The notes under the pieces were generated by a model, which saw only the letters and a list, made by a program, of their open reading frames with translations, made no database searches and had not been told where the DNA came from. The position numbers were made by a program, and so were the translations under genes. A stretch of DNA of 40,549 bases from Nautiliaceae bacterium (GTDB taxonomy: Bacteria; Campylobacterota; Campylobacteria; Campylobacterales; Nautiliaceae): positions 1 to 40,549 of the forward strand of contig JAMOTL010000047.1 of NCBI GenBank assembly GCA_027062285.1. The letters run 5' to 3'. How positions within the stretch are numbered: the stretch's first letter is position 1; the number at the start of each line of letters is the position of its first letter. Shown here in pieces: positions 31,114 to 40,511 of the stretch.

Positions 31114-33279
31114 TTATGAAATTTTATCATTTTTTAATCGGTTTATCGGTTGAGGCTTACAAAAATAAAATCCTTGATACTCATCAACCCCCATTTCTTT
31201 TAAAATTCTAAATATTTTTTCTCTACAAACATATTCCGCCGTAATCTGAATATTAAATTTTTTAGCAAATTGTATAATAATTTTTACTATTTCCCTGAAT
31301 TTTTCATTTTCTATATTCTTTACAATACTTGAATCGATTTTAAGATAATCCGGACTTAATTGAACAATATTTATAAAGTTAGAATAACCGCTGCCAAAAT
31401 CATCTATAGCTACTTTAGCATTAAATTTTTTTACGTTATTTATAAACCTTTTTACAACTTCAAAATCTTTAATACTTTCACTTTCAAGTATTTCAAAACA
31501 GACGTCATAATTTTTATTTTTTAAATTTTCGTAAATCATTTTTTTTATTTCATAATTATTTAAATCTTCAAAAGAAAGATTAATAGATACTGTTTTATTT
31601 ATTTCAGGCAGATAATTAAAAATTTTTTCCAGCATTATTTTTGAAAATTTCAAATACATTTTTGATTCTTTTAATAAATCCATAAAATCTTTGGGTTCAT
31701 ATACTACACCTTCCCATACTATTCTCATCAGAGCTTCATATTTTACAATTTCTTTGTTTTCATTTACTATACAATGAAAATAAGGTTCAATCGCCCTGTT
31801 TTCCAAAACTTTATGTAAAAACTGTATTTTATCTACTTTTTTTATCTGTTGGTATTCTATATTCTCATCAAAAAACATATATTTCTTGCTCTGCTGTTTA
31901 TAAGCAAATTTTAAGGCTATCTCCGCCGTTTCCAATAATCTTTTTTTATAATTACTGGCACCTATTGTAAAATTAATCACTACTCCATCATATGAGGGTT
32001 TGATATTTGAAAGTTTTATCAAATCTTCTTTTTTAACTTCTCTTTTCAACGGTATGGCAAATTCATCGCTTCCTATTTTATATACTTTTTCATAATAATT
32101 TTTTAAAGTTTTTTTCACCTGATTTAATATTTCGTCCCCGAAATTAAAACCGTATATATCATTCAAATCGGAAAAATCATCTATATCGATTAAAATCAAC
32201 CCTTGATAAGTTCCTTTATTAATATCTTCTATAAGTTTAGCCCTGTTAGGAAGTTGAGTTATTTCATCAAAGAAAAATTTTCTCAAAAATTTCTTTCTCA
32301 TCTGTTCGTAACTTCTTATTATTTCATTCATAATAAATTTAGATATGAAATAAGAAATAATAACAATGATAACGGTAATTAAAACAAGAAGAATTATCGC
32401 TTTTTTAAACAGCATATTTATATTCGCATAAACCTGATTTTCAATTTTTTTAAAATTTTCTAAAATTTGAGTTTCATACATTCCTTTTATAAAAACCCAA
32501 TTATAAGGTTTCATAATAGCAAAATAAGATATTTTTCTCTCATATCGTTTAGTTAGAGGATTTAAAAACATATAACTCACAAAACAATCGTCTCTTTTGG
32601 CTTTCAGACACTCGAAATACTCTTTTCTGTATTTATGTCCTTTTACATCAGAAATATTAATCGAAAGTTTTTTTCCTATTAACATTCTCAATTTAGGAGG
32701 CATATAAATAAGCTCACCTATTATTCCGCTTTTGTCTGGATTCCAATTATCAATTTTTCCTACAGAAATATAAGAAATTTTATTTTTATTATATTCATCA
32801 AGAAATTCGAAAATGCTCTTTTTAACGGTTTTTTCTATTTCTCGAGTATCAATACCCACCGCTTTAACTAAATTGTCTTCTTTTAACAATTTAATAAGAT
32901 AAGAACTGTTATTCGTTTCCAATAAATAAAATACCTTTCCTTTAATAATAAATGATTTAAGCATTGCCGAGTCATTATTAATTGAATCGAAAAATTTTAT
33001 TTTCGAATCCGAAGGAGTTTTAAAACCGGATTCTAAAAACATATATGCATTTTCAAAAACCGCTTTTCTGAGATAAGAAAAAGAAAGAATTAAAGAATCG
33101 ACTTCTTTTTTCAACTCCTGTTTTTTTTCTTTTATTAATTCAATTTTATCCTGTTGAAGTTTTTCCGTAGCTATATTTTGTAAAATGATTTTAAAAAACA
33201 CAAAAAACACACCTAACACAATAATAAATGAAATTAAAGGTATTAAAATTATAGAATTAATTAATTTTTTCAAAAGCAC
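31114..33279 (-). CDS. Membrane GGDEF-EAL protein with periplasmic sensor domain
   Basis: A 721-residue c-di-GMP signalling protein. Membrane helix 1 (about 9-33), a periplasmic Cache-like sensor (about 40-285, ending YFAIMKPYNWVFIKGMY), helix 2 (about 293-314), a GGDEF domain with GSDEF at 403-407, then an EAL domain with EAL at 515-517, DDFGSGYSN at 626-634 and the YQGFYF end. The EAL catalytic set looks intact, so phosphodiesterase activity is likely; the altered GGDEF may be weak or regulatory. The start is GTG at 33279, or possibly TTG at 33273, which is better spaced from AAAGG. It overlaps metY by up to 23 bases and precedes metX. Confidence 0.92.
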   Translation of the reverse strand: MLLKKLINSIILIPLISFIIVLGVFFVFFKIILQNIATEKLQQDKIELIKEKKQELKKEVDSLILSFSYLRKAVFENAYMFLESGFKTPSDSKIKFFDSINNDSAMLKSFIIKGKVFYLLETNNSSYLIKLLKEDNLVKAVGIDTREIEKTVKKSIFEFLDEYNKNKISYISVGKIDNWNPDKSGIIGELIYMPPKLRMLIGKKLSINISDVKGHKYRKEYFECLKAKRDDCFVSYMFLNPLTKRYERKISYFAIMKPYNWVFIKGMYETQILENFKKIENQVYANINMLFKKAIILLVLITVIIVIISYFISKFIMNEIIRSYEQMRKKFLRKFFFDEITQLPNRAKLIEDINKGTYQGLILIDIDDFSDLNDIYGFNFGDEILNQVKKTLKNYYEKVYKIGSDEFAIPLKREVKKEDLIKLSNIKPSYDGVVINFTIGASNYKKRLLETAEIALKFAYKQQSKKYMFFDENIEYQQIKKVDKIQFLHKVLENRAIEPYFHCIVNENKEIVKYEALMRIVWEGVVYEPKDFMDLLKESKMYLKFSKIMLEKIFNYLPEINKTVSINLSFEDLNNYEIKKMIYENLKNKNYDVCFEILESESIKDFEVVKRFINNVKKFNAKVAIDDFGSGYSNFINIVQLSPDYLKIDSSIVKNIENEKFREIVKIIIQFAKKFNIQITAEYVCREKIFRILKEMGVDEYQGFYFCKPQPINRLKNDKIS

Positions 33280-34569: not shown

Positions 34570-35280
34570 TTGAAAGATAAAGTTTTCGCCAAACCTATCG
34601 AAAAACAGTTCGAATTTGACGAAGAAGTTGCAAGTGTATTTGACGACATGTTAAACAGAAGCGTACCTTTTTACAAAGAAAACCTAAATTTACAAATAGA
34701 AATTTTGAAAAATTTTTTACAAAAAAACGATAAAGTTATTGATTTGGGAAGCTCAACCGGTACGTTTTTAATAGAATTGGCAAAAAAAAGTAATAAAAAG
34801 TTAAATTTAATAGGTATAGATAATTCCGAAGCTATGATTAAAAGGGCAAAAAACAAAGCAAAGGCATTCGGAGCCGATGTAAAATTTATAAATTCCGATT
34901 TTTTAGAATATGATTTTTCAGATTCAAAAGCTATTGTGGCAAATTATACCGTTCAGTTTATAAGACCTTTAAAACGGGAAAAACTTATTAAAAAAATATA
35001 TGATTCTTTAAACAACGACGGTATTTTTCTGATGAGTGAAAAATTAATTACAGAACATAAAAAATTAAATAAGATTATGATCGATATTTATTATGATTAC
35101 AAAAAGAAAATGGGTTACAGCGAATTCGAAATATCACAAAAAAGAGAAGCCCTCGAAAATGTTCTTATTCCTTACACGATGAATGAAAATATAGAAATGT
35201 TAAAAAATGCCGGTTTTAATGATATTGAAGTTATTTTCAGATGGAATAACTTCGCTACTTTTATTGCTTTTAAGAATTAA
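34570..35280 (+). CDS. cmoA: Carboxy-S-adenosyl-L-methionine synthase
   Basis: A 236-residue SAM-dependent enzyme. CmoA converts SAM and prephenate to carboxy-SAM, used by CmoB to make 5-oxyacetyluridine at wobble position 34 of tRNAs. The N-terminal [20 protein letters not shown] is a CmoA hallmark, followed by the SAM loop [28 protein letters not shown] and the conserved C-terminal [11 protein letters not shown]. The start is TTG at 34570 with AAAGGAAG just upstream. It is divergent from metY and its end overlaps flhA by 11 bases. cmoB is not in the window. Confidence 0.93.
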
Positions 35281-37450
35281 AATCAATACTTATATTCCCA
35301 AGTACTTCAAATTTAGCATTAGGGTCGATTTCAGCATGTGAGAGTACTACCACCTCAACTCCGAATCTCTCCAATATCTCAGCAAGTGGTTTTCTTATAA
35401 GAGGATCGACTATCAATACTACAGGCGCTACCCCTTTATTTATCAGTTCGGCTGCTGCGTTATTCACCTCTTCAACGAGTTTATTCATTTCCGCAACTGT
35501 CAGCATAAACTGTTTTTGTTCCCCTTGCTGTTTTAATTTGGACATAAGATACTGCTCCGTTGGGGCATCGAAAGTAATTAATTTGATAGTCCCGTCTTCA
35601 CTTTCGTAAAGTTTGGTAATAACACGGCTTAGAGCACTTCTTACATGCTCCACAATCGTATCGACATTTTTTGTGTATTCGGCAATATCCGCTACCGTTT
35701 CAAGAATGGTTATCATATCTTTAATAGGAATTTTTTCATGAAGCAAAGATTTTAGAACTCTTTGAATAAGTCCTATACTTGCGACTTTTAAAGCGTCATC
35801 GACAACTGCAGGATAATCTTTTTTGACTCTATCAAGAAGTGCCTGAACATCTTGGCGGGTTAAAAGCTCTTCTGCGTATTTTTTTATAATCTCACTAATA
35901 TGAGTTACGATTACGGTAGAAGGATCTACAACGGTATATCCGTTCATTAGCGCTTCTTCTTTTTTGTCTTCATCTATCCACAAAGCTTCGATTCCGAATG
36001 CCGGCTCTTTTACTTTTATTCCTTCAATTTCCTCGATAACCATAGGAGTGGACATGGCAAGGTATTTGTCCGGATAAATTTCACCTTTGGCAACTTCCAC
36101 TCCTTTTAACAAAATTTGATATTCGTTAGGTTTTAAATTCAAATTATCTTTAATTCTTATCTGAGGTACCAAAAAACCGAAATCCGCCGCTATTTTTTTA
36201 CGCATAGCCTTTATTCTGTCAAGCAAATCACCTCCCTGGTTGGGGTCTGCTATTTTTATCAGCTGATAACCTATATCAAGTTCCAAAAGCTCCACTTTTA
36301 AAATATCCTCTAAAACTTTTTCCTCTTCTTTTGCCGCTTCTTCAGGAGATTTTTTCTTTTCTTTTTCTTTTTTAAGTTCTTCCTTTTCTTTCTCAGGCAG
36401 CTTTGTAACAGGTTTTTTCTTTTTTCTGAATTTGTTTAAAAGCTCGCTAATAGGATCAACACCTTTTTGAGTTTCCATCATAAGATATCCGGCGATTAAA
36501 AATATACTTCCCACAAACAGCATACTTCCTGTAGGAAATCCTGGAATAAAAGCCATAAATATTATAATAATGCCTACTATTAAAACGACTTTATAATCAC
36601 GCATCAATTGTTTGATAACGCCCTCTGCGAAGTTTGTTTCATCTTTAGTGGCACGCGTAATAATAATACCTGTAGCCGTAGATACCATAAGTGCCGGAAT
36701 CTGCCCTACAAGCCCATCCCCTACCGTTAAAATCGTAAAAGTTTGAGCGGCCTGGGCCAAATCCATCCCGTATTGAAACACCCCTATTAAAAATCCGGCA
36801 ATAATATTTACAATAGTAATAATTATCCCCGCAATCGCATCACCTTTTACGAACTTACTAGCCCCATCCATAGCTCCGTAAAAATTCGCCTCTTTTATAA
36901 GCTCTTCACGGCGTTTTTTGGCTTCTTGTTCATCAATAAGCCCTGCGTTTAAATCAGCATCAATCGCCATCTGCTTACCCGGCAAAGCATCAAGAGTAAA
37001 TCTTGCCGCAACTTCAGCAACCCTTGTGGAACCCTGTGTAATTACCAAAAAGTTGATAACTACTAAAATAATAAATACAATAATTCCTATTACGTAATTT
37101 CCTCCTACTACGAACTCTCCAAATGCCGTAATGATTTTACTAACGGCGTCGGGCCCTTCGTAACCTTTACTTAAAATCATTCTTGTAGTGGCTACATTTA
37201 ATGAAAGTCTATAAAGAGTCACTATTAAAATAATTGTCGGAAATGTTGTAAAATCGGTAGGTTTCGGAATATATAAAGAAAGCATTAAAATTAAAACTGA
37301 TACCGCTAAAGATATTGTAAGAAAAAAGTCTAATATTCCACTCGGTAGTGGAACTATAATTATTAAAAGAATGGCAAAAACAAAAAAAACAACTCCGATA
37401 TCGGTAATTTCGCTAAATAAACGAAGCGAATTTTTTAATTTATTTATCAG
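35270..37450 (-). CDS. flhA: Flagellar biosynthesis protein FlhA (export gate)
   Basis: FlhA is the export-gate membrane protein of the flagellar type III secretion system. The first ATG, at 37285, would remove the first membrane helix. Upstream of it the frame stays open to a stop at 37454-37456 and encodes clear FlhA sequence, including [16 protein letters not shown] and [15 protein letters not shown]. No ATG, GTG or TTG exists there; a CTG at 37450, about 8 bases after AGGA, would give 726 residues starting MINKLKNS. FHIPEP-family marks [31 protein letters not shown] and [16 protein letters not shown] and a cytoplasmic FlhA-C domain (after about residue 360) are normal. The 5' end overlaps the Rrf2 gene. 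Confidence 0.9.
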
Positions 37451-37856
37451 CTCTTATCCTTATTACATCCGCAAGCGTGTATTTATCTAAAATATGTGAA
37501 ACTTCATTCTCAATTTTAGCAAAAAAAGGCCATAACGAACAAACATCGCTTCTGTCTCTTGTGCAATCATTTTTATCTGAAGAACAATAAAAAACTAAAG
37601 AATTTTTATCTTCAAGAACTTTAAAAACATCAACTATTTTTATATCCTCGGGCTTTTTCGCCAGAACAAAACCTCCGTGAATACCTTTATATGACTTTAT
37701 AAAACCGTGTTTTGAAAGATTTTGCAAAAGTTTAGCCAAAAAAGGCTTGGGCAGCTCCGTCAATTCAGAAATTTTATTAACATCAACCGGTTTGTCGAAT
37801 CTTGAGAGCTCAACCAACGCCTGTAAAGCATAAGCTGTAGATTTAGTAAAAAGCAT
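37440..37856 (-). CDS. Rrf2-family transcriptional regulator with three cysteines
   Basis: A 138-residue winged-helix regulator. The DNA-binding domain (about 1-70) contains ELTELPKPFLAKLLQNLSKHGFI and GIHGGFVLAK. Cysteines C91, C98 and C106 lie where IscR and NsrR bind an Fe-S cluster, although the spacing is not identical to IscR (92/98/104). It may sense iron-sulfur status, oxygen or nitric oxide. It sits just upstream of and overlapping flhA, the order I recall in C. jejuni (Cj0883c/Cj0882c). A TATAAT at 37877-37882 and a TTATCT-N5-AGATAA repeat lie directly upstream. Confidence 0.9.
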   Translation of the reverse strand: MLFTKSTAYALQALVELSRFDKPVDVNKISELTELPKPFLAKLLQNLSKHGFIKSYKGIHGGFVLAKKPEDIKIVDVFKVLEDKNSLVFYCSSDKNDCTRDRSDVCSLWPFFAKIENEVSHILDKYTLADVIRIRADK

Positions 37857-37888: not shown

Positions 37889-37905
37889 TTATCTTATTTA
37901 GATAA
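37889..37905. repeat. Inverted repeat TTATCT-N5-AGATAA upstream of the Rrf2 gene
   Basis: A perfect 6-base dyad with a 5-base centre, containing the kinase stop codon and centred about 27 bases upstream of the predicted Rrf2 transcription start. On the minus strand it is followed by a T-rich tract. It can be an AT-rich terminator for the kinase, an operator for Rrf2, or both. Confidence 0.5.
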
Positions 37906-39679
37906 GCTTTATCTCAAAAAAAGCACCGTTTTTATCTTTTTTTAAGTTTATGGCACCATTAAAATTATTTTCTAAAACTATTTTAGAAAATAACAATCCC
38001 AATGCCGAATTGTTTTCTATTTTATTTACAAACACCGGTTCTAAAATTTTATCAAACAATTCGTTATTTAAAGAATTATTCAGTTCTTTTATTTCCAAAG
38101 TTTTATTTTTCTTATCGAGATTTATTTCTAAATCGATATCAGGTTGCGTGGAAGCTTCGGTAATACTTTTTAAAATATTTAAAATAAGTTGCTCAAACTG
38201 ATTTTTATCCGCCCTGATAATAAAATCTTCTCCTTTTATTTTCAGACTAATATTATAAATATCCAAATAAGGTTTGACAATAGAAATAACATATTCCAAA
38301 GATGATTTTACACTGAATTCTTCTTTTTTTTCTTTTTTAACAAACAGCGTTTCAAATTCATCTATTTTATCAGATAAATATTTTGTTAAATCTTTTAAAT
38401 TATCTTCTTTTATTTCCGCATGTAGTTTTTTTATAGGATATTTAAGTTGAAAAACAATTCCGTCAATTATTTTTCTAAACGCTTCTTCTTTATAATTTTC
38501 AAACTGAGTGTCCCTTTTTTTTATCTCTTTTATGGCTTCATGAATTTTATCTTCAAGGGTTTTATTCATCTTCTTTATTTTTACATTATATCTATGTAAC
38601 TGAATATTTTTCATAAACAGTATGATCAACACTACGACAATTATAAAAAACAATATTATCGCACTTATTATCCATTCTCGGTACATTTCAAAAAAAGTAT
38701 CGGGTTTATTAACAAATATCGGATTGTCAAAATTCAGAGAATAAGCGTTAATCCCGAACTTTTCTAAATTTTTTACATTAAGATACATTTGATTGGCTTT
38801 TTCAAAAGTAAATCCGATATCTCTCATTTTTTTACCGCTTAAATATTCAATAACTTTTTGCGCAACCTCTTCCCCCTGCGTAATTCCGTCCGTCACTTTT
38901 CCGCCTACTATATTTGTTTTTGGTATATTCGCCAGCAAATCGGTATGAATAACTATAGGTCTGTTAAAATATTCGCTTAAAAACATTATTGCGTATCTAT
39001 AATTTATATGGGAACCTTGAAGGGCAAAACTAAAAGGTGTAAGAAGCATCATGGATGAATGAATCGGCGCTTTTTTTATTCTTTCTACGATTTCTTCGAG
39101 ATTTTTATTATTTATATATACAAAATCGAATTTTTTGATATTCTTAAATGCTTGTTGATATTCTTTCATAACGGATTTAGCTGAGTTTGAATTATCAGCC
39201 ACCACATAAATAGTTTTTATTTCAGGATCTATTTTTTTTATAAATTTTAAATTTACAAGAGGTTCCTTTTTTTCAAAAACACCGGCGTAAATATTTTTAT
39301 CCAAATGCTCTGCCAAACATAAATTATTCACTCCGGCAAAAAAAACTTTAGCTTTTTTAAAAATGGAACGGTTTTTGTATTTTCTGATAAAATTTAAAGC
39401 GTTGTCATCCGTGGTAATTATTATGTCGAATTTTATTTTTTTATATTTATCCAATAAATAAGAATAAAAATTTTTGAGCCTTTGAGGGGTGGGCCTAAAA
39501 ACTTTAGTATCCATAAATTCCGTATAAATTTTTAAATCGCTTCTGTTTTTTAGTTTATTTAATATCCCCTCAAGCTCGGATTTAGTCCAGTCTAAATTAA
39601 TAGAGTATGAATTCAATATTAAAATATTTTTGGCAAAAAGAGGCAAGATTAATATTAAAATCAAATACAGTCTTCTCAA
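37898..39679 (-). CDS. Membrane sensor with ABC substrate-binding-like domain and degenerate histidine-kinase module
   Basis: A 593-residue protein. Signal segment (1-16), a periplasmic domain like those of ABC-type substrate-binding sensors (about 17-320), one membrane helix (about 337-356), a coiled coil, then a kinase-like part (about 398-593). The H-box reads IVFQLKYPI, with F410 where the phospho-accepting histidine is expected. The N-box NILKSITEA is partly kept, but the ATP-lid glycines are lost: ELNNSLNN replaces the DNGGG-type box and NSALGLLF the GTGLGL box. It is likely a pseudo-kinase that senses or allosterically signals. Start TTG at 39679 with AAGGA upstream. Divergent from rpsO. 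Confidence 0.85.
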   Translation of the reverse strand: MRRLYLILILILPLFAKNILILNSYSINLDWTKSELEGILNKLKNRSDLKIYTEFMDTKVFRPTPQRLKNFYSYLLDKYKKIKFDIIITTDDNALNFIRKYKNRSIFKKAKVFFAGVNNLCLAEHLDKNIYAGVFEKKEPLVNLKFIKKIDPEIKTIYVVADNSNSAKSVMKEYQQAFKNIKKFDFVYINNKNLEEIVERIKKAPIHSSMMLLTPFSFALQGSHINYRYAIMFLSEYFNRPIVIHTDLLANIPKTNIVGGKVTDGITQGEEVAQKVIEYLSGKKMRDIGFTFEKANQMYLNVKNLEKFGINAYSLNFDNPIFVNKPDTFFEMYREWIISAIILFFIIVVVLIILFMKNIQLHRYNVKIKKMNKTLEDKIHEAIKEIKKRDTQFENYKEEAFRKIIDGIVFQLKYPIKKLHAEIKEDNLKDLTKYLSDKIDEFETLFVKKEKKEEFSVKSSLEYVISIVKPYLDIYNISLKIKGEDFIIRADKNQFEQLILNILKSITEASTQPDIDLEINLDKKNKTLEIKELNNSLNNELFDKILEPVFVNKIENNSALGLLFSKIVLENNFNGAINLKKDKNGAFFEIKLI

Positions 39680-39791: not shown

Positions 39792-40067
39792 ATGGCTTTG
39801 GATTCGGCGAAAAAAAGAGAAATTATCGCTAAATTCGGAAATAATGAAAATGATACTGGAAGTCCTGCGGTTCAAATCGCACTTTTGACTGAAAGAATCA
39901 ATCAAATTAATGAACATTTACAAACACACAAACATGATCATTCAAGTAGACTTGGACTACTTAAATTGGTAGGTCAAAGAAAAAGACTTATGAGATATCT
40001 TAAGAAAAAAGATCATGACAAATATCTTGAAGTAATAGCTGCCTTAAATTTAAGAGACAGAGTTTAA
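39792..40067 (+). CDS. rpsO: 30S ribosomal protein S15
   Basis: A 91-residue ribosomal protein that binds 16S rRNA early in assembly. The family signature [22 protein letters not shown] and [19 protein letters not shown] are present, and the length is normal. It has its own strong promoter, an AGGAGG site, and a terminator hairpin at its 3' end. In many bacteria S15 represses its own mRNA; the ~40-base leader here was not folded in detail. Gene order with Rrf2 and flhA matches C. jejuni from memory. Confidence 0.97.
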
Positions 40068-40079
40068 TCTCTTCTCTTA
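40051..40079. terminator. Hairpin between rpsO and the convergent membrane-protein gene
   Basis: TAAGAGA (40051-40057) pairs with TCTCTTA (40073-40079) and AGAG (40059-40062) with CTCT (40069-40072), an 11-base-pair stem with one bulged C and a TTTAAT loop. It contains both stop codons, so it can serve both genes. T-runs beyond it are modest. Confidence 0.6.
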
Positions 40080-40511
40080 CTTATTTAACGCTTTTCTTTC
40101 TATTTCATCCAACTTATCTTTATATTTCAAATTATCAGGTAAAATATTCCCGTGAAAATAATCAAAAATAGCTTTATTTCTATTTTTGTGATTCAATAGT
40201 TTTTCAAAAAATTCAATAGATTTTTTTTCATCATTTTCCATTTTAAAATTATCTTTATAAAGTATTAAAGCACCCAATAAATCGGCATTTTTTGATTTTG
40301 GATTTGACGCTATTTTTAATAAATCATTAATTGTTATCTCTTTTTTCCGATTATCTTTTGATAAATTTTTTTTACCTGCTTTTTTTGAAAGGATAATTAT
40401 CAAGATTACTGATAAAAACAAGAATAAAAAAAGATACACCAGGAAAAACCAATCCTGGTTTGGCAAAAAATTTAAAAAAAAATCAACCGTATTTTCTAAA
40501 GCCTCTTTCAC
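40077..40511 (-). CDS. Small membrane protein of unknown function
   Basis: A 144-residue protein that I do not recognise. A single strong hydrophobic helix (about 20-42, LVYLFLFLFLSVILIIIL) follows a short, possibly periplasmic, N-terminus, then a basic stretch and a cytoplasmic helical domain (about 58-144). That domain contains NDLLKIASNPKSKNADLLGAL and NHKNRNKAIFDYFHG and resembles short helical-repeat pieces. The start is GTG at 40511, overlapping the upstream stop as GTGA, so it is translated with that gene. It converges on rpsO; C. jejuni has a hypothetical gene in this place (Cj0885c), from memory. Confidence 0.75.
   Translation of the reverse strand: MKEALENTVDFFLNFLPNQDWFFLVYLFLFLFLSVILIIILSKKAGKKNLSKDNRKKEITINDLLKIASNPKSKNADLLGALILYKDNFKMENDEKKSIEFFEKLLNHKNRNKAIFDYFHGNILPDNLKYKDKLDEIERKALNK

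Follow-up and report, generated by a model that had tools for sequence, protein, structure and literature searches.

A histidine kinase homologue without catalytic residues that retains its periplasmic sensor domain in Nautiliaceae

The stretch of DNA analysed here, referred to as the window, comprises 40,549 nucleotides from a member of the Nautiliaceae, a group of vent bacteria, and belongs to genome G000 of our comparison. It contains, between the locus marker rpsO and the genes for an Rrf2-family regulator and FlhA, a reading frame of 593 codons that opens with TTG directly downstream of an AAGGA motif and whose product has the outline of a sensor histidine kinase with a degenerate core. 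The genes of the locus and the parts of this frame are as follows.

31114..33279, minus strand: dCache-GGDEF-EAL protein with GSDEF replacing GGDEF (Pfam; conserved near the locus in several relatives)
35270..37285, minus strand: flhA, conserved neighbour, true start probably further upstream (Pfam; gene order)
37440..37856, minus strand: Rrf2-family regulator, conserved neighbour (Pfam; gene order)
37898..39679, minus strand: degenerate sensor histidine kinase, 593 aa, TTG start (reading frame of the window)
39629..39679, minus strand: N-terminal hydrophobic segment, signal or anchor, residues 1-17 (sequence; helix 2-14 in the predicted model)
38675..39628, minus strand: periplasmic substrate-binding-protein-like sensor domain, residues 18-335, conserved (invariant columns; fold matches)
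38504..38674, minus strand: membrane helix and helical linker, residues 336-392 (predicted as a single continuous helix, 334-422)
38324..38503, minus strand: remnant of the DHp hairpin, residues 393-452 (without 19 of the 57 columns present in G010 and G013)
38450..38452, minus strand: codon of F410, at the position of the phospho-acceptor His (alignment)
37901..38323, minus strand: remnant of the CA (ATP-binding) domain, residues 453-593 (HATPase_c below cut-off; CA-like fold with normal-core relatives in the alignment)
38165..38167, minus strand: codon of S505, at the position of the N-box Asn (alignment)
38063..38086, minus strand: ELNNSLNN, residues 532-539, at the D-box (alignment)
37988..38011, minus strand: NSALGLLF, residues 557-564, at the G2 box, compare GSGIGLYM and similar (alignment)
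39792..40067, plus strand: rpsO, divergent conserved neighbour, locus marker (Pfam; gene order)
40077..40511, minus strand: 144-aa frame without significant Pfam family (adjoins rpsO in 11 of 12 clustered family loci)

Above the first ATG of flhA (37285), positions 37286-37446 of the minus strand are open and encode a hydrophobic stretch matching the N-terminus of FlhA from G001; this extension holds no ATG, GTG or TTG, and CTG and ATA codons lie near the rrf2 stop. The start of flhA is very likely to be found upstream of 37285.

An earlier note, written from the letters of the window, had placed F410 at the H-box histidine, ELNNSLNN at the D-box and NSALGLLF at the G2 box, and all three positions were confirmed in an alignment of 18 sequences (A1), 11 with a normal kinase core and seven with a degenerate one. 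Three further homologues of the sensor, from G293 and G232 (about 40% identity) and from G294 (36%), are outside A1 and the neighbour counts, and L146 is outside a second alignment, A2. The column of F410 holds His in all 11 normal-core relatives, nine of which read DNGGG or DNAGG at the D-box, and a further loss, absent from the note, was found at the N-box, where the Asn is replaced by S505. The window protein retains only 20 of the 53 core columns that are invariant in the 11 normal-core relatives; in the sensor, where 58 columns are invariant in 10 of these relatives (G032, whose N-terminus is missing, being excluded), it keeps 55, and residues 18-335 hold 34 of the 36 invariant columns of A1. 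The periplasmic domain and the membrane helix are intact, as the note had it. Pfam profiles give HATPase_c 18.7 bits (cut-off 26.4) and ABC_sub_bind (PF04392) 16.7 bits (cut-off 25.9) in the window protein, both below threshold, and no match to HisKA; across A1, HMMER at E 0.001 detects HATPase_c in 11 of the 18 members and HisKA in eight, and ABC_sub_bind reaches E 0.001 or better in eight. What marks an active kinase in sequence, namely the phospho-acceptor His, the N, D and G2 boxes, and HATPase_c and HisKA scores above cut-off, is absent, and descent from histidine kinases is nevertheless indicated by the alignment over the full length with the 11 normal-core relatives, four of them at the same locus. 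At the level of sequence, the window protein is confirmed as a histidine kinase homologue without catalytic residues that has retained its sensor. Two side observations concern relatives with a core scored as normal: G029 (L081:7155-9005) and G275 (L086:6810-9008) carry Asn at the D-box Asp (NNGGT and NNGEK), and an in-frame TAA interrupts the kinase homologue of G032 (L084, G032:C13) close to the N-terminus of its sensor.

The sensor domain was found in 12 of 21 Nautiliaceae genomes, one of which (G004) has only a short, broken remnant of the gene, and each of the 11 full copies sits between rpsO and rrf2-flhA. Four of these orthologues, from two genera, have a normal core (G010, G013, G007 and G011) and seven a degenerate one, four in the genus of the window (G000, G001, G002, G005) and three in another (G008, G014, G020). 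Every degenerate copy (7/7) is without the His and the first two G2 glycines, the N-box Asn is kept in G001 only, and the D-box column still has Asp in G008 and G020, where the glycines are gone. Of the 57 DHp columns found in both G010 and G013, each degenerate copy lacks between 19 and 36, with 17 gone from all seven, and the H-box region varies from copy to copy. The seven copies from three other families (G029, G032, G049, G055, G224, G275, G311) all have the His and the N-box Asn, and their G2 box is retained. The earlier note had set losses shared among homologues against a single decaying copy with intact orthologues: relatives with a normal core do exist (11 of the 18 sequences in A1), and since the losses are common to seven of seven orthologues in two genera, this is not a single decaying copy, and is more than chance would give.

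The gene has also been lost. In G003, G012, G016 and G017, rpsO and rrf2 are 143-358 bases apart with no sensor match between them (in G017, rpsO is interrupted further on by a run of N); in G006, G009, G015, G018 and G019 the sensor was not found anywhere in the genome, and the locus is unreadable there. Of the 12 readable loci in the two genera with degenerate cores, seven have the gene and five do not (four clean losses and one remnant), and the function must therefore be dispensable. The loose functional definition of a histidine pseudokinase, a class that includes DivL and RocA, as a protein that has lost its catalytic residues and whose gene is maintained fits all seven open copies with their conserved sensor columns, yet these five of 12 loci have lost the gene. 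The rrf2 match of G003 (L215, G003:C89), a genome without the sensor gene, contains a stop.

Two candidate connections with neighbouring genes were rejected. Action on the flagellar or Rrf2 genes, which the earlier note had offered as an example, finds no support in the locus, as the order rpsO-sensor-rrf2-flhA is unchanged with normal kinases and is therefore uninformative about the dead kinase specifically, and rpsO and rrf2 persist, 143-358 bases apart, in four genomes without the sensor. Neither can the dCache-GGDEF-EAL gene (31114-33279) be an obligate partner: in G005, a genome with the sensor, the usual neighbours of this gene are present without it, and full or near-full-length matches occur in G006, G012, G016 and G017, all of which lack the sensor.

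Constraint on the two halves of the protein was compared in pairs of orthologues. In 10 of 11 degenerate pairs the sensors are 58-71% identical, the DHp regions 18-43% and the CA regions 14-40%; the closest pair, G020-G008, stands at 81%, 70% and 66%. Normal pairs across genera give 60%, 54% and 55% (G010-G007) and 56%, 53% and 52% (G013-G011), and within a genus their DHp and CA identities are 91% and 85% (G010-G013) and 69% and 75% (G007-G011). Across genera, sensor identity is 56-64% with either type of core; for pairs from one genus, the two with normal cores give 75% and 84%, and those with degenerate cores 63-81%. In the nine Nautiliaceae pairs computed, pN/pS of the sensor is 0.14-0.36. 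That of the core is 0.12 and 0.26 in two normal pairs; the tail of G020-G008 gives 0.30 (0.22-0.41) and is therefore still under purifying selection, and the remaining six degenerate pairs reach 0.66-0.91 at saturated synonymous sites. Since saturation also affects the four pairs within the window's genus (0.73-0.91), the case for constraint on the tail in that genus comes mostly from the open frame.

That frame is open over 520-593 residues in all seven degenerate copies, with tails of different lengths. When neutral drift by substitution alone was simulated from G010, 64 of 2000 tails were still open at 0.1 substitutions per site, one of 2000 at 0.2 and one at 0.3, and none of 2000 at each of 0.5, 0.6, 0.8 and 1.0, which bears out the earlier suggestion that the unbroken frame of 593 residues is maintained. 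Together with this, the seven copies retain 51-55 of the 58 invariant sensor columns, as against 8-20 of the 53 core columns, and it follows that the gene is translated and the sensor maintained. The tail too is maintained, though less strictly; this is clearest in G008 and G020 and less clear in the window's genus.

An AlphaFold2 model built with 15 sequences (the window protein and named loci) has a mean pLDDT of 84.0, with ten-residue blocks at 86-96 in the sensor and at 53-87 in the C-terminal 140 residues, and a model built with five degenerate sequences only has a mean of 60.7 and falls below 50 in the former ATP-lid region, residues 535-565. The predicted sensor domain has the fold of substrate-binding proteins, matching 6hnj (Z 23.4, rmsd 4.3, 276 residues aligned) and 3lft_A, a complex with L-Trp (Z 22.6, rmsd 4.1, 273 aligned). 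The tail matches CA domains such as 3a0y_B (Z 17.4, rmsd 2.5, 142 aligned), a result helped by the normal-core relatives in the alignment.

No response regulator adjoins the gene in the window, by its list of reading frames and a Pfam scan, in agreement with the earlier note. In six of the genomes from other families (G029, G032, G055, G224, G275, G311) the kinase is adjoined by a response regulator with REC and GGDEF domains, identified by Pfam in the proteins of G224, G029 and G032 and by clustering with G224 in G055, G275 and G311; in G049 the REC-GGDEF regulator is not adjacent to the kinase. A possible kinship between a 151-aa gene beside the G049 kinase and the gene of equal length that adjoins the regulator in Nautiliaceae was rejected (no match at E 0.001). 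Among the matches listed for the 21 Nautiliaceae genomes, a full-length orthologue of the regulator occurs in G010, G013 and G001, and a form of 222 aa with REC and linker and no GGDEF in G007 (L122:1767-2435) and G011 (L123:1914-2582), where the kinase is normal; no other genome has a comparable match. Searching back with the regulator of G010 returned the kinase-adjacent regulator as best match in six of seven related genomes (in two pieces in f20), and in G049 a protein on another contig.

In Nautiliaceae the regulator belongs to an operon with the order aspS-adk-cinA-regulator-151 aa. In the window genome, cinA is directly followed by a 153-aa gene where G010 and G013 have the regulator, which is therefore missing from the operon; the gap after cinA recurs in G012, a genome that no longer has the sensor gene and whose 151-aa gene is cut short. 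In G001, two genes intervene between cinA and the regulator (L202:2844-7786), one for a 598-aa protein to which Pfam assigns no convincing family and one for another histidine kinase, whose HisKA and HATPase_c both score above their cut-offs, as if another sensor system had taken over the regulator. The cinA-like neighbour of the regulator in G011 is broken. Because cinA was found in only seven of the 21 genomes, the regulator site is unreadable in the others. A full regulator or its REC part is present in all four genomes with a normal kinase and in one of the seven with a degenerate kinase (Fisher p 0.015, uncorrected for kinship and counting as regulator-less G005, a genome 63% complete). 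A REC-only protein elsewhere in the window genome (G000:C107) was considered as a relic of the regulator and is not supported as such, having no neighbours in common with the regulator operon. The absence of the cognate response regulator from its operon, which the earlier note overlooked, is the probable cause of the degeneration of the kinase.

These observations can be brought together in a sequence of events. The ancestor would have been a sensor histidine kinase signalling to a REC-GGDEF regulator whose output was that of a diguanylate cyclase. Along the present branch of the Nautiliaceae, this regulator would have been lost from the operon or, in G001, have come to stand beside another kinase; the kinase core would then have lost its phospho-acceptor His, the G-box glycines and part of the DHp hairpin, and the window protein in addition the N-box Asn and the D-box. 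With the His, the glycines and both of these boxes lost, we propose that ATP binding and phosphorylation are gone. Since the ligand-binding domain, the membrane helix and an open tail are kept, the product is most likely a non-phosphorylating sensor where the gene survives, and it would relay ligand binding by contact with another membrane or cytoplasmic protein. We infer that the regulator was lost before kinase activity, that the protein binds no ATP and that signalling by contact is the function that remains; the order of events rests on few lineages. The succession as a whole, from regulator loss through kinase loss to persistence as a contact sensor, seems to us reasonably probable on the comparisons made here. 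A tree of the sensor has two changes of kinase state, and a single one suffices in 27% of 200 bootstrap trees, so the kinase may have been lost once or twice; an unrooted tree of six flanking genes places the four normal-kinase genomes on one side of a branch with support 100. One family thus holds genomes in which kinase and regulator are whole (G010, G013), in which the regulator has lost its output and the kinase is normal (G007, G011), in which the regulator stands by another kinase and the old kinase is dead (G001), in which the regulator is missing from the operon and the kinase is dead (the window genome), in which a remnant of the gene is left (G004) and in which the gene is gone (G003, G012, G016, G017). 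With these stages side by side, the order of loss, and what keeps a sensor with a dead kinase alive, become directly testable. Such genes should not be annotated as histidine kinases.

The open frames also bear on a rival account, in which the kinase is already dead, the sensor trails it in decay and the gene is heading for the loss seen in sister genomes. The remnant in G004, the rpsO-rrf2 intervals without the gene in G003, G012, G016 and G017, the variable tail lengths, the 8-20 of 53 core columns kept and the high tail pN/pS (0.73-0.91) of the four pairs within the window's genus would all be expected of terminal decay. It is harder to reconcile with frames open over 520-593 residues in seven of seven copies, which simulated neutral drift would have closed, with the 51-55 of 58 invariant sensor columns kept, and with a tail pN/pS of 0.30 in the closest pair, and we regard decay as unlikely, if still to be reckoned with. 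At the other extreme, an active kinase that makes do with unusual residues is scarcely credible: a CA-like fold is predicted when normal-core relatives are in the alignment, and G029 and G275, counted as normal, carry Asn at the D-box Asp, so that single box residues can evidently vary, but the window protein is at once without the His, N-box Asn, D-box and first two G2 glycines, and its model made without normal-core relatives is of low confidence at 535-565.

Two further readings name a particular kind of partner. The earlier note had suggested that the protein could act on another kinase; it would then be a pseudokinase tuning an intact histidine kinase to which it binds, for which RocA with CovS (PMC7028121) and a variant of ChrS with HrrS (PMC9491836) are reported precedents. 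The window genome offers eight places above the HisKA cut-off, two of which may be one gene on two contigs, and the models predict long helices running from the membrane across what is left of the DHp; however, 19-36 of 57 columns are gone from the DHp and the H-box region varies. The shortened hairpin makes canonical pairing less likely, and this partner seems to us improbable. Alternatively, the sensor may have been rewired by direct contact to a membrane GGDEF/EAL enzyme, as a kinase-free c-di-GMP co-receptor, converging on an operon seen in Sulfurimonas and Sulfuricurvum; we hold this to be rather improbable.

That operon belongs to a wider family, in which the sensor domain is combined with kinase, GGDEF, GGDEF-EAL and HD outputs. 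In Sulfurimonas and Sulfuricurvum the protein has no more than a short coil or PAS-like tail beyond the sensor, with no kinase domain by Pfam in the four proteins scanned (L142-L145), and its gene is followed by a SCO1/SenC-like gene and a membrane GGDEF-EAL gene, both identified by Pfam. Both genes lie 3' of the sensor in 13 of 14 loci tested (L142-L145, L147, L063-L068, L070 and L170, several of them one place seen in two collections, and a minority scanned for a kinase); L168, the remaining locus, is truncated by the end of its contig, and rows L138 and L170, being short, are excluded as proteins. The contrast loci L061, L062 and L069 have neither gene within their short flanks. A kinase-free form of the sensor beside c-di-GMP enzymes therewith exists outside the Nautiliaceae, and it is the basis of the co-receptor reading without being proof for the window protein. 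We know of no description of a sensing unit made of a kinase-less sensor with SCO1/SenC-like and GGDEF-EAL genes.

Among known systems, one comparison is with the kinases of G029, G032, G055, G224, G275 and G311, from related Campylobacterota, whose sensor is homologous to that of the window along its whole length and which presumably represent the ancestral state; unlike the window protein, they have a normal H box, N-box Asn and G2 box and an adjacent regulator. The Sulfurimonas and Sulfuricurvum sensor is of the same family, at about 30% identity, and differs in its short coil or PAS-like end and in its operon with SCO1/SenC-like and GGDEF-EAL genes. The co-receptor idea resembles NspS-MbaA of Vibrio, in which a periplasmic binding protein regulates a c-di-GMP enzyme; there the binding protein is soluble and separate from the enzyme. 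NspS acts on MbaA by contact. In a literature search of titles and abstract openings no description of the window protein was found, and the phrase 'histidine pseudokinase' did not occur in the literature searched. RocA of group A Streptococcus is a membrane sensor-kinase homologue without kinase activity, termed a pseudokinase (PMC7028121), which is reported to keep a candidate His (H246) and to act on the kinase CovS, whereas the window protein has Phe at that position and a sensor with a predicted periplasmic binding-protein fold. DivL of Caulobacter is reported to have a residue other than His at the phospho-acceptor site and to function without kinase activity (PMC4211667); its N, G1, F and G2 boxes are retained and it senses DivK~P, in contrast to the window protein, which is without the N, D and G2 boxes. 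The ChrS variant acting with HrrS is reported as a further non-catalytic histidine kinase (PMC9491836). Non-catalytic histidine kinases are thus a known kind, and what is unusual here is that the window protein has lost all boxes together and that so many stages are found in one family.
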